From Oecophyllibacter saccharovorans (GTDB lineage: Bacteria; Pseudomonadota; Alphaproteobacteria; Acetobacterales; Acetobacteraceae): a stretch of DNA of 64,000 bases. This document shows, one piece after another, positions 21,282-27,871 of the stretch. The DNA is taken from NCBI RefSeq assembly GCF_006542375.1, contig NZ_CP038143.1, positions 310,001 through 374,000 of the forward strand, read 5' to 3'. A program made the translations under genes and the position numbers. How positions within the stretch are numbered: position 1 is the stretch's first letter; every line of letters starts with the position of its first letter. The notes under the pieces were generated by a model. The model searched no databases. It was given only the letters and a program-made list of their open reading frames with translations, and was not told the origin of the DNA.

Positions 21282-21896
21282 CTAACGTCTGGCCTGAGCT
21301 TTCGCGGCACGCTCTCCTTCCCGCGCAAAGGCGCACAGGGCCTGCAGGATTTCTTCAGGTGCCGGCGGGCAGCCGGGGACAGTCCGCCAGCTCCGTGCCA
21401 GGCTGCTCACCCCTCCAAGAACCGCATAATCATTCGGGAAAACACCCCCGTTAAGGGCACATGCCCCTAAGGCGATCATGCATCGTCCTGGCGGCATACG
21501 GCTCCAGACCTCTGCCAGCCGCCCGGCACTTGCACGGGTTACCGGTCCGCTCAGAAGCAGCCAGTCCGCCAGGGCGGGATCATCCACCAGCTGAAAGCCG
21601 CTTCCCTCCAGCGCCGTGACAGAAGGCAGCATCTGCACTTCCATGGCACAGCCATCACAACCGCCTGTCGCCACCGGATAAAGCCGGATCAACTGGCGCA
21701 GACGTCCGTGCCGGGCACGCGGGCGCCAACGCTGCGCATCCAGAAACGCCATGAGGAGCGTCACCGGCACTGAAGCGCTCTGCATCTGGCGCGCGGCCGC
21801 AGGACTTTCCTTGGCTTTCAGCGGTGCAGACATAATGGGATCAGCTGCAGGCTGATAATCCTTCCCGCCCGACTGTCCTTCAATCTGTTCATCCAT
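21282..21896 (-). CDS. hyfI: HyfI/NuoB-like small subunit of a hydrogenase-related complex
   Basis: 204 residues from the ATG at 21896; a GTG two codons earlier (21902) is an alternative. It matches the small subunit of group 4 hydrogenases and NuoB of complex I. The four cysteines for the proximal [4Fe-4S] cluster are all present: C80 and C83 in GGCDGCAMEV, C146 in LGACALNGGVF, C176 in VPGCPPAPEEIL, plus SGPVTR and LGGVSSL blocks. An N-terminal extension of about 60 residues is unusual. It is the last gene of the cluster, 70 bases after hyfG. Intact cluster ligands imply an electron-transfer role even though the partner large subunit lacks a metal site. Confidence 0.85.
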   Translation of the reverse strand: MDEQIEGQSGGKDYQPAADPIMSAPLKAKESPAAARQMQSASVPVTLLMAFLDAQRWRPRARHGRLRQLIRLYPVATGGCDGCAMEVQMLPSVTALEGSGFQLVDDPALADWLLLSGPVTRASAGRLAEVWSRMPPGRCMIALGACALNGGVFPNDYAVLGGVSSLARSWRTVPGCPPAPEEILQALCAFAREGERAAKAQARR

Positions 21897-21972
21897 GATC
21901 ACATCCGCTCAGTTTTCCCGCAATCGCTCTACTGGCAGGCAATGCCTGAAATTCTCTGATTCCATTAAAATT

Positions 21973-23505
21973 CTATAAAGCCGCCCCTGCCGGGGACAGC
22001 CCCAACGAGCTCAATACCAGCGGAACCCGTGCTGCCGGCACAGAAGCCAGCAGGGGTGTCAGCGCCCCCAGAAGGGCAACTGCCGGGTCGCGCACCTGCA
22101 CATCTGCCAGGTTTCCGTTTTCATCAAGCCGTACCCAGTACCACACATCACCACGGGCCCCTTCCGCAACGCCCAGCCCCTCACCGGTCGGCGGCAGGGG
22201 AGACACATCGTCACTCTGGCCGATTGACGCAATCAGTCGGCGGAGCAGAGCCAGAGAATCCCGCATTTCTCCCAACCGTACCCTGTTGCGGGCCAAGGCG
22301 TCTCCCTCGTGACCTACAGGGGCACGCAGACAGTCCACCCGCATTCCCGCTTCACTGCGCCGCAGGTCGACAAAACGCCCACTGCCCCGCCCGACTGCAC
22401 CACCAAGCGCATATTGCCAGGCCATTTCCGGCGACAGCACGCCCACCCCGGCAAAACGTGATGCATAGATTCTGTTCAACTTGGTCAGGCGTGGCAGATA
22501 AGGGGCAAGGCTGTCCACAACGGCCTGAGCCAGAAGCACCGGTTCCGCAACAGCACTTTCCAGCGGCAGAACACCGATCGTATCGGTCAGGCGGCGGCTC
22601 GTGCCATGTTTCTGGCACAGCCGCGCCAACCGCTCGCGCAGCATCGCGCATTGCTCGCCCATCAGCCCGGCTCCTGCTTCGCGGGCTGTACGCGCCAGAT
22701 CGTATAAATGGAGACTGAGGCGTTCCACCTCCAGCAGAAGCAGACGTATGTCACGCTCACGCGGCGTGGGCAGAAGACCGCAGGCCTGCTCCACCGCACG
22801 GGCAAAAGCGAGAGGATGGGCCACAAAACCGCTCGCGCTCACACGCCCCACCAGCCCCAGCGCCTGAGTTGGGCTCAAGCCGCGCAGGCGCGCCTGAATT
22901 CCCCTGTGCGCTTCAAACAGCCCGCATTCCACGCTGCCATCTTCAACGCGTGTCAGGTTCAGAACACCTGCCACCCCGGAGCGGTCAGGGGGCACCAGCT
23001 CCGCCCAGGCCGGATCAGGTCTGCCGCTGGCAGGGACTGGATCAGGGGCCAGGGGCCAGGTGACGGTCCAGCAGCCACTGTCGAGAAGAGGCGTATCAGA
23101 GCGCGCAAACTGCGCTTCCACGCCCCAGAGATCGCGACTCATCCGCTCCCCCATCACTGCGGCAGCGTACCGCCGGGAAGCGCCGAGGTAACGCCGTTGC
23201 AGCACGGGCGTGCTGACAAGGACAGGGCTTTCACCTTCCAGCAGCAGAAGCGTGGCTTCCGTGGCATCCGCCCAGCTCGCCAGCAGAGGCAGAGAATGCC
23301 CTGGAGCGCTCAGCATCTTCTCCCACTGCTCTGGCGTCAGCCGGTAGCGCAGCAGCCCGACCTGCTCTCCCTGGCGCAGCAAGGCGTTCATCGTGCTGCC
23401 CGGCAGACCGCCCTCCTCCAGAGGTTTCGCCGCCTGGGCAGAAGGGGTCACAACCGTTCCGGCCTCAAGCGAAGGGAAAGAATCTGGATCAGGCGCTCCC
23501 CTCAC
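21973..23505 (-). CDS. hyfG: HyfG-like (NuoCD-type) large subunit lacking NiFe ligands
   Basis: 510 residues. A NuoC-like N-terminal part (about 50-145, with RMSRDLWGVEA) is fused to a NuoD/hydrogenase large-subunit domain (about 190-510, with EAHRGIQARLRG, LLLLEVERLSLHLYDL, AEGARGDVWYWVRLDENG and VRDPA). At the first ligand site, RxCGxC is RVSASG (221-226). At the C-terminal site, DPCxxC is replaced within SSLGLSPAGAAL (499-510). No catalytic NiFe site can form in the known way. Translation starts at GTG overlapping the hyfF stop (GTGA). By family knowledge this resembles Ehr complexes or complex I rather than a hydrogenase. Confidence 0.84.
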   Translation of the reverse strand: MRGAPDPDSFPSLEAGTVVTPSAQAAKPLEEGGLPGSTMNALLRQGEQVGLLRYRLTPEQWEKMLSAPGHSLPLLASWADATEATLLLLEGESPVLVSTPVLQRRYLGASRRYAAAVMGERMSRDLWGVEAQFARSDTPLLDSGCWTVTWPLAPDPVPASGRPDPAWAELVPPDRSGVAGVLNLTRVEDGSVECGLFEAHRGIQARLRGLSPTQALGLVGRVSASGFVAHPLAFARAVEQACGLLPTPRERDIRLLLLEVERLSLHLYDLARTAREAGAGLMGEQCAMLRERLARLCQKHGTSRRLTDTIGVLPLESAVAEPVLLAQAVVDSLAPYLPRLTKLNRIYASRFAGVGVLSPEMAWQYALGGAVGRGSGRFVDLRRSEAGMRVDCLRAPVGHEGDALARNRVRLGEMRDSLALLRRLIASIGQSDDVSPLPPTGEGLGVAEGARGDVWYWVRLDENGNLADVQVRDPAVALLGALTPLLASVPAARVPLVLSSLGLSPAGAAL

Positions 23506-24809
23506 GCTTCACGCTCCCCCAATACTGCCGGTGACCTCAGTGATTCAGGCAGAGGGGAAAGGATCAGTCTGCCTGACACGTCGGGGTCTTCCTCTTCTCC
23601 GGGGATTTCAGAACTTCCCGGCACGAAAGCCGCTGTCAGAGCCAGGGCCAGCAAACCAACGCCCAGCCCTAGGGCCAGACGGCGATCCGGAGCGGCCATG
23701 CGCGCCCCGAGCCACGATAGTGAGAGGCCCTGCAAGGTGAGGGTGCGCAGATCCCAGGCAAGGGCGCCGACTGCCAGAACCGTCATGACCCAGGACAGAA
23801 CCTGCGCCAGCATGATGAGAATGACCACCAGCAAAGGCAAGGCACACCATTCCACCAACTGCGTTCCTCCCACTTTTGCATTCCCGGTTTCAATGGAGAG
23901 CGGGGCCAGCAGGCGCTGCAGGGCGCAGCACAGCAGCGCAGCACAGAACAGAATCAGCAGGGCGTTCTCCTGCCCGCTCCCTGCCGCGACCGCGCCCAGC
24001 CCCACCAGCAGGGAGAGCAGAGGCGCGGAACGACGGCCACTGCCCAGCACGGTCAGCCAGAGGCCAGCCAGACCGGCCAGCAGAATCAGTTCACGCGTCA
24101 GGGGAGAAACAGCCAGTTGCAGCAACAGAAACAGCGCGCCGAATCTGAGCCCTGTCTCCAGCAGGGCAAAGGCCGGGACAAGAATGTTGGTCTCTCCCAG
24201 CCCTGCCATCATTCCGAGACCGACCACCAGCATGATGGCACCCAGCGTCGCACCGTCCTGGCTGTCAGGCGTCAGGGGCAGGGCCTGAAGCAAAGCCGCC
24301 CCCAGAGCACTCAGACACACCCCGCAGAGACGCAGGCGCACCATATCCCACGCACTGCGCGCGCGCCTGGGACCCCGTCCATCCCACCAGGCCAGAACCA
24401 CTGCGCCGGCGCCCAGGCAGATGACGACTGCCAGAACAGACTGCACGCACAAAGCCATCAGCCCGCAACCCGTCACCAGAAAAGGCAGCCGTTCCGCAAG
24501 GGCGGCTTCCGCACGCGTCAGCTCAACCTGCCCTCCAGACGGGGCGTTCACTAACGGGGCGCTTACAAAAAGCAGCAGGGGCGTGCAGGATTCAAGCCCG
24601 ATCGCCACCGTTTGAACAATGGGCAGATTGTTCGGAAAGAACACCAGCGCAAACAGGCTCATGGCTGCCCCGGCCAGCGCCAGACCCCGCCCCTGCCCGA
24701 TCCGCCCGGACGCCCAGAGCAGGACGGCTACCAGAAAAGGCCAGCACAGGACCGCAAACAGCCCGGGAGGCGGCAACAGACCGACTGGAAGAAGGGAAGC
24801 AGTTTCCAT
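23502..24809 (-). CDS. hyfF: HyfF/NuoN-like antiporter-type membrane subunit, degenerate
   Basis: 435 residues with about 12 hydrophobic segments and the length and position of HyfF. Identification rests mainly on order (between hyfE and hyfG) and topology; sequence similarity to NuoL/M/N is weak by eye. The only lysine in the whole protein is K312 in a loop, so the membrane lysines expected for proton translocation are missing. E218 in FALLETGLRFG is the clearest buried acidic residue. A hydrophilic tail of about 45 residues ends the protein. A 76-base gap separates it from hyfE. Its stop overlaps the hyfG start. Confidence 0.72.
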   Translation of the reverse strand: METASLLPVGLLPPPGLFAVLCWPFLVAVLLWASGRIGQGRGLALAGAAMSLFALVFFPNNLPIVQTVAIGLESCTPLLLFVSAPLVNAPSGGQVELTRAEAALAERLPFLVTGCGLMALCVQSVLAVVICLGAGAVVLAWWDGRGPRRARSAWDMVRLRLCGVCLSALGAALLQALPLTPDSQDGATLGAIMLVVGLGMMAGLGETNILVPAFALLETGLRFGALFLLLQLAVSPLTRELILLAGLAGLWLTVLGSGRRSAPLLSLLVGLGAVAAGSGQENALLILFCAALLCCALQRLLAPLSIETGNAKVGGTQLVEWCALPLLVVILIMLAQVLSWVMTVLAVGALAWDLRTLTLQGLSLSWLGARMAAPDRRLALGLGVGLLALALTAAFVPGSSEIPGEEEDPDVSGRLILSPLPESLRSPAVLGEREA

Positions 24810-24885
24810 CCGTTGTTCTTATCCCAAAACTTTTCCGGTCCCCAGCGCTTCAGCCCCAGGCTTCAGCGTGCGTCTGCGCGCCATC

Positions 24886-25419
24886 TCAGTAGGCCTCTGA
24901 ACGACGCCAGACCAGCCGGGGCAGCAGAAGGCGACCGAGCAGGGCCAGCACTGCCCAGAGCGCCACCGCCGTCAGACACAACCCCCAGGAGGACAGAACG
25001 CAGCCCAGCACCATCAACCCGTCAGCTGCCATCAGCAGCCCGCAGAACTGGGTCAGCGGTGTCCCGGTTCCGACCAGGCAGAGCGCGCCAACAACCAGCG
25101 CCACGGCCAACAGAGCGGCCAGACCGACGGAAGCGCCGGCCAGAGCCAGCACCAGCTCAAGCAGAAGCGTCAGCACGATGGGCAGAAGACCGCGCAGCTG
25201 CCCCTGCAGAGGGCCAGGCGGTTCCCCATAGCTCCGCAACGCCAGCCAGGCCCCGAAATTGAACACGATCAGCACGCCGACCGAAAAGGCTGCCAGAAAG
25301 CCGTTCTGAACCAGCCCGCACGCCACGGCACAGGCAATCCCGTACAAAGGCAACCAGCGCGCATCCTGCCCGAAGGTCAGAAGAATCATCACCAGGGCGA
25401 AAGCGAAAGCCGTGATCAT
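24886..25419 (-). CDS. hyfE: HyfE/NuoK-like membrane subunit, degenerate
   Basis: 177 residues with about six hydrophobic segments. It matches HyfE in length and place. The usual MENG-type segment with a buried Glu appears as GLLMAADG (127-134), with Ala in the Glu position by my alignment. E88 (LLLELVLAL) is the one clear buried acid, and there is no lysine at all. The ATG at 25419 overlaps the hyfC stop (ATGA); an open frame reaching 25626 lies inside hyfC and is not the true start. Confidence 0.74.
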   Translation of the reverse strand: MITAFAFALVMILLTFGQDARWLPLYGIACAVACGLVQNGFLAAFSVGVLIVFNFGAWLALRSYGEPPGPLQGQLRGLLPIVLTLLLELVLALAGASVGLAALLAVALVVGALCLVGTGTPLTQFCGLLMAADGLMVLGCVLSSWGLCLTAVALWAVLALLGRLLLPRLVWRRSEAY

Positions 25420-26396
25420 GCGGCGAACCTCCCTGAAAGGGCGAGGAGAAAAGCAAGGCCAGCCATCAGGGCGGCAAGACGTGCATTCCGTTCCGTGCGC
25501 GTGGCTTCCAGCACGAGCAACAGACCCAGCGCACCCCCCAGCCGACCCAGGAATGCCAGAAGCGCCATGCCCGGCGTCTCCCCTGACAGACCAGGCAGCA
25601 GCAGATCCCCCAGATAAAGCAGCCATCCTATCTGCAGAAAAGAAAGCAGACTGGCCCTTTCATCAAAAATCTGCCGGATAATGCCCAACTCCTCTTCACC
25701 GCTGCCCTCGTCGCCTTTGTGGAAAGCATTCAGGCGCGGAAAAGCACCGGTAAAGGCTAGGGCCAGGCCACAACAGGCACTTGTACCGCTCAAGCCGGGA
25801 TTGGCGCCTTCATGAAGCAGATATCGCACACCATCCAGCCCCGTCACACCTGGTGCAGCCAGGACAAACAGGCTTTCCGTCACGCACAATACCAGTACCG
25901 CCCCTCCGAGGCTGGCGCGCTGACGCGCAGCAGTCGACCGGCCGGTTCCCAGGAAAGCCGTAGCTGCCAGCAGGAGAAGCCCCAGAAACAGAGGATCGCT
26001 CAACCAGACCGACGGCACCCAGCCTTGCGCCAGAACCGAGGTGAGCGCAGCCATGTCGCCAGACAGTCTGGCCCAGACCCCAGCCGGCATTGGCCCGCCT
26101 TGTATTCCCGCTCCGCCTGAAACGCAGGGAGCCAGACCGGGCAGGGCCAGAGCGACCAGAGCTCCCATGGCCATTGCAACCCCCCAGGATGCTGAGAGCC
26201 CTTGCCTCAAGGCCAGTAGAGAAAAGCCCCATATACGCCGGAATGCCAGAGAAAACGGGCGCACGCTGCGTCCTGCCAGAAAATCTCCGCCTTCTTCCAC
26301 CCACCAACTGAAAAAGGGCGCGAGCAGCGCCAGAAAGCCCAGCTGCAGCAAAGAAAAACCGACGGAAACGACAAGGCTCAGAATATCCGGCTTCAT
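25416..26396 (-). CDS. hyfC: HyfC/NuoH-like membrane subunit
   Basis: 326 residues with about eight membrane segments. NuoH/HyfC anchors the hydrophilic arm and forms part of the quinone or proton path. Recognisable remnants are PFFSWWVEEGGDFLAGRSVRP, in the place of the GRRGPS-type loop, and an acidic loop EEELGIIRQIFDERAS (about 240-255), in the place of the E-L-T-hegm loop. Only two lysines occur, neither in a membrane segment. The ATG at 26396 overlaps the hyfB stop; the longer frame to 26474 lies inside hyfB. Confidence 0.74.
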   Translation of the reverse strand: MKPDILSLVVSVGFSLLQLGFLALLAPFFSWWVEEGGDFLAGRSVRPFSLAFRRIWGFSLLALRQGLSASWGVAMAMGALVALALPGLAPCVSGGAGIQGGPMPAGVWARLSGDMAALTSVLAQGWVPSVWLSDPLFLGLLLLAATAFLGTGRSTAARQRASLGGAVLVLCVTESLFVLAAPGVTGLDGVRYLLHEGANPGLSGTSACCGLALAFTGAFPRLNAFHKGDEGSGEEELGIIRQIFDERASLLSFLQIGWLLYLGDLLLPGLSGETPGMALLAFLGRLGGALGLLLVLEATRTERNARLAALMAGLAFLLALSGRFAA

Positions 26397-27871
26397 ACGC
26401 CCCACTCCACCAGAGCAAGCATAAAGCCGAGGAAAGCCATCCAGAAGCCTACACTGATCGAAGGCCAGCGCCACTCAGAGAGGGCATATTGCAGCTGCAG
26501 AAGACCCAGAAATTTTTTCAGACGCAAGGCCAGCCGGAAGGCGCGACGGGCCAGACGTTTCTGCATCAGACGCAGACGGACCAGATCCCCTGCCTCGCCA
26601 TCCGACAGCACAGTTCCAGAAGAAAAAAGATCCGGCCAGCGCAGCCCGAGAGCCGCACCATGATGACGCCAGGGCCTTACAAAAAAACACCAGAAGGCCA
26701 GCAGCATGCCCCAGCCCAGAGGCCAGGCCAGAAGCGCGCCGTCTCCACCGCGGATCTGCCAGAAGGCCTGCTGCCATCCTGCAGACCCGGTTTCTGCAGA
26801 AGTGATAAGAACATGCCCGGCCGGGACTGACAGGAGCACAAGTCCCAGCGGCACCAGAAACGCCCCGATCAGAAAAGCCAGAGTGATGGGGCGTCCCCCC
26901 AGCCAGGACAGCACGGCCAGTCCTTCAGCCAGGGAGAGCCCCCCCAGCAGACAGGCCAGAAACAGGCCTCCCGGGGTCCAGTCAGGTGTGCCTGTCGCCA
27001 GGCCGAGCGCTGCATGCAGTCCCAGCCACAGCACCAGAAAACCCGGCAGGGGCGGAACGGGAAGCAGCAGCCCCTCCCATCCTGGACGCAGCACACCAAG
27101 CGCCTGCAAGGCCAGGTCCAGCATAAGGGCAGCCAGCGCTGCCTGCGCGCTCGCCTCCAGCCCGGCGCTGGTGGCAGCCTGCATCAGGCCGAGCAGAATC
27201 ATGGGACGCATGGGCAGAAAGGCCGCTACCGCCCGCGGCGTGGGGTGAACTGCCAGGGCCGCCAGCCCCAGTGCCCCCATGATCACGACACTGCCACAGA
27301 GCCAGAGGGCCGGCATGGTAGGGTGAACATGTGCGGCCAGGCCGACTGCCAGAAAACTGCCTGCAACCTGCCCGCAGGCGCGGTGTCCGCCAGGCCAGAA
27401 CAGAACAGGCAACAGCGCCAACACGCCCCAGATACCGGGATAGAGGGCATAGACAAGCAGCAGAGGAATAGCGATGGCAGGCCGGCAGAAGGCTTCACCT
27501 GGGGCATGCAGCAGCAGAATGGCCGCACCGATGAACAGCACTGTGCCGGCTGGAATCCCGCACAGCAGCGCTGCGGCCACACAGAGAAGGCCCAGTCGGT
27601 CCAGGGTCAGCCGCGCCTGCAGCCTGGCCCCCAGATCTTCACGCCAGCGCGCCGCTTCCGCCAGTGTGTGCTGCAGCACCGCCCCCAGCGCCTGGGGCTG
27701 GAGCAGATATTTATGGATGAGACCCGCTCTCAGCCTGCTGGCCCGCAGACTGCCCAGCGTCAGGCCAGCCCCCCGCACTGACGCCAGATCCGGCAATGGC
27801 CGACCGACCAGCAGGGCTGCAGCCACCAGCAGGACTGCCAGAAAATAAGTCGGAAAATCCGTATGCACCAC
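26393..27871 (-). CDS. hyfB: HyfB/NuoL-like antiporter-type membrane subunit, degenerate
   Basis: 492 residues with about 13 hydrophobic segments, shorter than E. coli HyfB (about 670). There is no lysine between K54 and K438, so the conserved transmembrane lysines of NuoL-type subunits are absent. The segment matching the KxLLAYSS region reads PRAVAAFLPM. A C-terminal basic cluster (QKRLARRAFRLALRLKK) is followed by a last helix. It starts at GTG with a weak ribosome site, 83 bases after holC and on the same strand, so it may be read through from pepA-holC. It is the first gene of the six-gene block, and assignment as HyfB rests partly on gene order. Confidence 0.7.
   Translation of the reverse strand: MVHTDFPTYFLAVLLVAAALLVGRPLPDLASVRGAGLTLGSLRASRLRAGLIHKYLLQPQALGAVLQHTLAEAARWREDLGARLQARLTLDRLGLLCVAAALLCGIPAGTVLFIGAAILLLHAPGEAFCRPAIAIPLLLVYALYPGIWGVLALLPVLFWPGGHRACGQVAGSFLAVGLAAHVHPTMPALWLCGSVVIMGALGLAALAVHPTPRAVAAFLPMRPMILLGLMQAATSAGLEASAQAALAALMLDLALQALGVLRPGWEGLLLPVPPLPGFLVLWLGLHAALGLATGTPDWTPGGLFLACLLGGLSLAEGLAVLSWLGGRPITLAFLIGAFLVPLGLVLLSVPAGHVLITSAETGSAGWQQAFWQIRGGDGALLAWPLGWGMLLAFWCFFVRPWRHHGAALGLRWPDLFSSGTVLSDGEAGDLVRLRLMQKRLARRAFRLALRLKKFLGLLQLQYALSEWRWPSISVGFWMAFLGFMLALVEWGV

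Follow-up and report, generated by a model that had tools for sequence, protein, structure and literature searches.

A candidate pump-less variant of the energy-converting-hydrogenase-related complexes in acetic acid bacteria

Introduction

Energy-converting-hydrogenase-related (Ehr) complexes are defined by a large subunit that lacks the CxxC ligand motifs (PMC6349859, PMC10432482, PMC10284858; these papers and those below are cited from excerpts), and their function has been called unknown (PMC10432482, PMC10284858). The window considered here—64,000 nucleotides of the genome of Oecophyllibacter saccharovorans (NCBI RefSeq assembly GCF_006542375.1, contig NZ_CP038143.1, positions 310,001 to 374,000, forward strand)—carries a six-gene cluster of this type, hyfB-C-E-F-G-I. 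An original prediction, made from the letters of the window, had as its highlight a large subunit without nickel–iron (NiFe) ligands. That loss is real, but it is a general property of Ehr complexes and already published, and is therefore not the surprise. What is unusual lies in the membrane arm, where pump residues and a coupling loop, overlooked in that prediction, are gone as well.

A NiFe-less hydrogenase relative has been described in Pyrococcus furiosus. In this membrane-bound sulfane sulfur reductase (MBS), the proximal [4Fe-4S] cluster is the reported catalytic centre, held by only three Cys ligands in a shortened motif, and the complex is described as pumping via a charged axis (PMC7684303). 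The same paper names His38 and Tyr87 of Nqo4 as quinone head-group residues.

No characterised close homologue of the window cluster was found in searches of the open-access literature, the nearest solved relatives being complex I, formate hydrogenlyase (FHL), and membrane-bound hydrogenase (MBH). Nor did that literature yield anything on hydrogenase-4 in acetic acid bacteria and Gluconobacter, the broader search being judged by the titles listed; the Bombella intestini genome paper does not contain the word 'hydrogenase', and a paper on Acetobacteraceae respiration contains it once and 'hyf' not at all.

The hyf locus

The cluster spans window positions 21282-27871 as six open reading frames on the minus strand, intact and in the predicted place and order:

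26393..27871, minus strand: hyfB-like, 492 aa, antiporter-type (NuoL/M/N-like) membrane subunit with pump residues lost; no Pfam match.
25416..26396, minus strand: hyfC-like, NuoH-like membrane anchor with acidic motifs and the loop between transmembrane helices 5 and 6 (TMH5-6 loop) lost, assigned by hhalign to canonical HyfC; start set at ATG, longer frame possible, to 26474.
24886..25419, minus strand: hyfE-like, small membrane subunit with zero lysines and a weak profile match to canonical HyfE; start set at ATG, longer frame possible, to 25626.
23502..24809, minus strand: hyfF-like, antiporter-type membrane subunit, 435 aa, single lysine, NuoL-like model.
21973..23505, minus strand: hyfG-like, large subunit (NuoC+NuoD / HycE type) without NiFe ligands; PF00346.
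21282..21902, minus strand: hyfI-like, small subunit with a predicted [4Fe-4S] site; PF01058; alternative start 21785.

With starts picked by overlap, ATGA overlaps occur at hyfB/hyfC and hyfC/hyfE and a GTGA overlap at hyfF/hyfG; the hyfE/hyfF and hyfG/hyfI junctions are gaps of ~70-76 nt each. The GC content of the six genes (0.61-0.65) matches that of the window (0.62), as had been claimed of the neighbouring DNA. Informative Pfam matches were obtained only for HyfG (PF00346, 49-kDa family, E 6e-19) and HyfI (PF01058, 20-kDa family, E 3e-17), and the names HyfB, HyfC, HyfE, and HyfF are therefore based on gene order, profile comparison, and fold. At E<=1, Pfam yielded nothing for the window HyfB, HyfC, and HyfE, and for HyfF a chance-level match only; the same four subunits of Gluconobacter oxydans had no match at E<=0.01.

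Loss of pump residues from the membrane arm

Pumping residues rank among the most conserved in the complex I superfamily. Canonical Ehr complexes, represented here by Rhizobium, Methylovirgula, Azospirillum, and the Acetobacteraceae loci L040, L045, and L050, retain E/K/K/E in HyfB at the places of NuoM 144/234/265/407, E/K plus E in HyfF (in which the NuoM 265 place is not Lys), and the motifs LAEP, PVDNP, and LEYSGRH in HyfC. The window HyfC possesses none of the LAEP, PVDNP, and LEYSG motifs, and its TMH5-6 loop is mostly gapped out in the alignment. This loop is one of the three reported to join the redox chamber to the pump in MBS, MBH, and complex I (PMC7684303). Profile alignment to the canonical subunits (hhalign) gave E 8e-11 for HyfC and a weak E of 0.002 for HyfE. 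Because the window HyfB and HyfF also align weakly (E ~0.003), the losses in these two rest partly on intermediates and lysine counts. The intermediates are the HyfB proteins of Gluconacetobacter and of loci L042, L043, L044, and L047, which still share one profile with canonical HyfB and in which the pump residues are replaced or gapped.

One further position can be located in HyfB by its own motif, in transmembrane helix 12 (TM12):

27026..27055, minus strand: HyfB residues 273-282, PPLPGFLVLW, with Leu where pumps have the TM12 Glu (...SEW).

Among 70 HyfB proteins surveyed (65 distinct), two lack the motif; the Glu is present in 11 of the 68 that bear it, all outside the acetic-acid-bacteria clade, and the remaining 57 have Leu, Gly, Phe, Ala, Thr, or Met in its place. 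Lysine counts, which require no alignment, give the same picture for the window: HyfB has four (at 54, 438, 452, and 453), with zero across residues 55-437, HyfF has one in 435 aa, at loop position 312, and HyfE has none. Ion translocation is a suspected function of Ehr complexes that lies outside their sequence definition, and the residues for it are absent from the membrane subunits of the window.

The predicted structures indicate that HyfF nonetheless keeps the antiporter fold: its model (predicted local distance difference test score, pLDDT, 78) superposes on Escherichia coli NuoL over 366 residues with Z 28.9 and on MBS chain H (6u8y) with Z 28.4. For HyfB (pLDDT 73), no Foldseek match was found at E<=0.001 (best E 0.68). 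Realignment of the HyfB model to an Mrp antiporter chain (Z 14.0) and to NuoL (Z 13.9) is suggestive of an antiporter-like fold, albeit at values close to 13, which helical bundles can reach by chance.

The large subunit and the missing NiFe site

The places of the two NiFe-binding CxxC pairs in HyfG were located by alignment:

22828..22845, minus strand: HyfG residues 221-226, RVSASG, site of the N-terminal CxxC.
21976..22011, minus strand: HyfG residues 499-510, SSLGLSPAGAAL, site of the C-terminal CxxC.

Aligned with HycE of formate hydrogenlyase, RVSASG falls on RVCGIC and SSLGLSPAGAAL on the DPCYSC segment, the C-terminal CxxC segment itself reading LGLSPAG. HyfG has six Cys (145, 194, 242, 286, 297, and 392), none at a ligand position, and both pairs that would mark a group 4 [NiFe] hydrogenase are absent, as had been predicted. 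The plasmid-borne Ehr operons of Rhizobium and Methylovirgula also lack both pairs, with a single Cys adjoining the third ligand place. A core of the protein persists, with 27 of 66 columns common to canonical Ehr and hydrogenases retained in at least 12 of 14 rows. The EPGHFR segment is altered, and the preceding His, conserved in canonical rows, is lost. RVSASG also aligns to RIEYLG of NuoCD; this column and that of the lost His may correspond to Nqo4 Tyr87 and His38, respectively.

The hydrogenase maturation protein HypD was not found in the source genome (G000) and was present in one of 20 genomes, G029. In this 1.9 Mb Acetobacteraceae genome, the large subunit at L046 bears CGIC and CYSC and belongs to a true group 4 hydrogenase, and a molybdopterin oxidoreductase is encoded nearby.

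A conserved iron–sulfur site in HyfI

Four Cys of HyfI align with the ligands of a [4Fe-4S] cluster:

21648..21659, minus strand: C82 and C85, first ligand pair of the predicted cluster.
21459..21461, minus strand: C148, third predicted ligand.
21369..21371, minus strand: C178, fourth predicted ligand.

The closest solved chain is FHL subunit 7. All four Cys are retained in 62 of 62 aligned hydrogenase-type HyfI rows, some of them from the same species; a 63rd row, E. coli NuoB, differs as expected. With a large subunit devoid of CxxC, a small subunit with [4Fe-4S] ligands, and an antiporter-like fold, the window cluster has the features of an Ehr complex.

Some loci carry no adjacent hyfI, and loss of HyfI was suspected there. 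Genome-wide search refuted this in G001, G008, G022, G037, and G046 (five of five): the gene has been relocated outside the operon, and four of the five displaced proteins keep all four Cys. This search did not take in five named Asaia loci without a nearby hyfI. Among 24 genomes searched, Ehr-type HyfI (>100 bits) accompanies Ehr-type HyfG in 19 of 19, and G029, with its true hydrogenase, carries an Ehr-type HyfI too.

Two arrangements around hyfI were also observed. In L116, L117, and L119 (G022, G008, and G046), the gene directly precedes an NrtR-type regulator gene and nadA-nadB-nadC. A link between HyfI and nicotinamide adenine dinucleotide (NAD) synthesis, which this adjacency prompted, was not adopted as the principal explanation; the nad cluster of Saccharibacter sits a few kb from hyf, and local rearrangement thus likely accounts for the adjacency. 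In Bombella, a gene for a 956-residue TonB-dependent receptor lies between hyfG and hyfI (L084:10515-13385) with a ratio of nonsynonymous to synonymous substitution rates (dN/dS) of 0.08, which is purifying; the same position is occupied by such a gene in L074, L075, L080, L081, L082, and L088.

Selection on the six genes

Across 17 Gluconobacter loci (pairs with dS 0.1-1.2), median dN/dS was 0.21 for hyfB, 0.145 for hyfC, 0.064 for hyfE, 0.105 for hyfF, 0.090 for hyfG, and 0.127 for hyfI, with hyfE the lowest of the six. Neighbouring genes gave 0.076 (holC), 0.072 (a Rieske-domain gene), 0.093 (an aldo/keto reductase), and 0.034 (a ROK-family gene). All six frames are open throughout these loci except for HyfB of L067, ended by a contig edge; the lone stop, in the L071 HyfB, lies at residue 7 counted from an arbitrarily chosen TTG start, beyond which the frame is open. 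In seven Bombella-clade loci, the medians were 0.166, 0.148, 0.078, 0.144, 0.086, and 0.066 (hyfB, C, E, F, G, and I, respectively), with zero stops in hyf genes.

These estimates show all six genes to be under purifying selection in sister genera, in line with the earlier argument for selection over decay. They cover the sister genera of the window lineage, which is represented by one genome of its genus in the collection used and has nearest HyfG relatives ~50% identical.

Distribution and descent

HyfG matches (E<=0.001) occur in 59 of 60 genomes of the family, with the best match exceeding 61 bits in 47; most of the weaker ones begin around residue 173-200, as expected of NuoD. A scan of named genomes with a HyfG alignment as query returned 47 loci—from Gluconobacter, Saccharibacter, Bombella, Neokomagataea, Asaia, Swaminathania, Brytella, Acidomonas, Tanticharoenia, and Gluconacetobacter, plus two loci named to family only—and zero matches with a single HyfG protein as query.

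The window and many of these loci, though not Asaia, share the neighbourhood sua5-cysQ, pepA-holC, hyfBCEFGI, pssA-psd-gloB (names checked with Pfam). In a HyfG tree of 47 rows, midpoint-rooted for drawing only, the 34 rows of acetic-acid-bacteria type group together with support of 100/99, and the window is placed next to Saccharibacter and Bombella (100/98); the long branches G046, G013, G040, G001, and G030 are placed less surely. Common descent of the pump-less clade is well supported by this shared neighbourhood and HyfG group.

A profile of pump-less HyfF found matches in 10 of the 60 family genomes, among the best 25 candidates per genome. In 289 genomes of the class (best five candidates each), it recovered the window genome clearly and G172 marginally, at 22 bits, in a sample with few genomes of this family. 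Misses are possible in both of these profile searches. Loci L042-L044 and L047 fall outside the HyfF profile, yet their HyfB residues are also lost. A further genome, G058, carries two Ehr-like clusters (L048 and L049) of differing gene order, whose large subunits do not group with the alphaproteobacterial type.

A proposed membrane module without a pump

The conserved cluster ligands and retained HyfG core, taken with the loss of pump and NiFe residues, argue for a non-pumping membrane module with a single cluster. On the sequence evidence, pumping by the known antiporter mechanism is very improbable for this complex. Whether the HyfI cluster is its working part is close to an even question, with the scales tipped slightly towards no. 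For the whole—an Ehr complex uncoupled from ion pumping, in which the HyfI cluster works in electron transfer or redox sensing without energy conservation—we would put the chance a little short of even, and it is the explanation that we prefer. HyfG and HyfI would remain a cytoplasmic single-cluster module, and HyfB, HyfC, HyfE, and HyfF would be a fossil pump, now a scaffold tethering that module to the membrane. The cluster would most likely exchange electrons with a soluble partner or sense redox state, in either case without conserving energy; ferredoxin-type proteins (PF12838), candidate partners, are encoded in seven of seven genomes checked. The stronger statement, that a whole pump has turned into an inert membrane scaffold and the single-cluster module has acquired a new function as an electron relay or redox sensor, is possible but more tentative. 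The cluster would accordingly be named a pump-less Ehr variant, with its reaction of this putative kind.

Several observations count against this preferred explanation, beginning with the weak alignment of HyfB and HyfF to canonical subunits and the near-chance HyfB fold score. Conserved protonatable residues remain (HyfB H286 and D377, HyfC D290, HyfE D88), and acidic residues stand at the HyfC LEYSG and THLE columns in 25 and 21 of 74 rows, respectively, more rows than the canonical ones account for. On the side of pump loss, the 27 core members of the clade have only five charged or His positions per subunit (B, C, E, and F) at >=90% conservation, against 26, 19, 23, and 6 in HyfB, HyfF, HyfC, and HyfE of the eight canonical rows; this comparison, however, sets 27 rows against 8, shows no real drop for HyfE (5 versus 6), and counts the clade's charges without mapping them onto canonical positions. 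HyfI of G001 (L120:5529-5948) has Ser at the first cluster ligand, a change that might create an open site on one iron, by analogy with what is reported of the MBS cluster. In addition, the Ehr-type HyfI of G009, partial and located at a contig end, is not accompanied by a strong HyfG, and HyfG of the Asaia locus L103 is split across two frames.

The strongest rival is a purely structural role, in which the complex, no longer catalytic, contributes to the stability or assembly of another membrane complex. All examined catalytic and pumping features are gone but one cluster site, the membrane subunits carry conserved columns of their own, and the family offers a precedent: a stabilising or assembly role has been proposed for the degenerate bc1 complex of acidophilic Acetobacteraceae (PMC10715153). 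This role has no obvious need for cluster ligands, however, and the four HyfI Cys persist. Complex I, moreover, was rejected as the stabilised partner, since its markers (NuoG-type PF10588 and antiporter PF00361) were not found in G000, G032, or G054; three genomes thus keep the hyf complex while having no detectable complex I, HypD, or further antiporter subunits, and no second 49-kDa family match was found in G000. We regard a structural role as unlikely, although not far-fetched.

Ions might instead still be moved along a rebuilt path, through the protonatable residues of HyfB, HyfC, and HyfE given above, HyfF D/E218, and arginines. Of the 27 clade members, 25 or more conserve each of these candidates, and HyfF retains its antiporter fold. 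With the antiporter-subunit cores of the window free of lysine, the TM12 Glu and HyfC motifs lost, and fewer conserved charges in HyfB, HyfC, and HyfF than in canonical rows, such a path is improbable.

Coupling of an Ehr-type oxidoreductase to formate dehydrogenase (FDH) or another molybdenum enzyme has a parallel in the FDH-Ehr complexes proposed for Margulisbacteria and Saganbacteria (PMC6349859), and the single molybdopterin oxidoreductase gene of G000 lies close to a ferredoxin-like frame (C1:548-551 kb). No PF00384 match was found in G032 and G054, although both retain the hyf complex, so a molybdenum partner is not obligatory, and no gene placed in the conserved neighbourhood is of this kind; the coupling is thus very unlikely. 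Least credible of all is a useless operon in slow decay: ancestral motifs are gone from the fast-diverging membrane subunits, and the L103 HyfG frame is broken, but dN/dS medians are 0.06-0.21 with frames intact in the 17 Gluconobacter and seven Bombella-clade loci (neither values near 1 nor frequent within-species inactivation being seen there), the complex is retained in 1.9 Mb genomes (G000 has 1.94 Mb), and HyfI is kept even when relocated.

A complex that is under selection without pump residues separates the role of the peripheral arm from that of the pump. Gluconobacter oxydans carries the variant and is workable in the laboratory, which makes the role of Ehr directly testable. Annotated under names such as 'hydrogenase-4' or 'NADH-quinone oxidoreductase subunit', these genes would lead models of acetic-acid-bacterial energy metabolism astray.

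Comparison with known systems

Complex I resembles the cluster in its NuoC/D-, NuoB-, and NuoL/M-type sequences or folds; by comparison, the window cluster has neither genes of the NADH-side module nor pump residues, and its genome gives no NuoG-type match. E. coli Hyf (hydrogenase-4) and Hyc share homology with HyfG and HyfI and the same gene order minus A, D, and H, whereas the window lacks NiFe ligands, HypD in the genome, and a HyfA- or HyfH-like gene in the cluster. MBS is likewise a NiFe-less hydrogenase relative, and its chain H resembles the HyfF model; unlike MBS, the window HyfI keeps four Cys with the CxxC spacing of hydrogenases.

The nearest known type is Ehr, as originally proposed and as gene order, HyfG alignment, and HyfG tree support; within the searches made, none of the findings named beforehand as contradicting the prediction—ligand cysteines, mostly broken orthologues, or a characterised close homologue—came to light. 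The six-gene Ehr of Rhizobium, Methylovirgula, and Azospirillum shares the B-C-E-F-G-I order and the loss of both CxxC pairs. In these alphaproteobacterial complexes, however, the antiporter Lys and Glu, the acidic motifs of HyfC, and the PVDNP loop are kept, and it is these that the window clade has lost.

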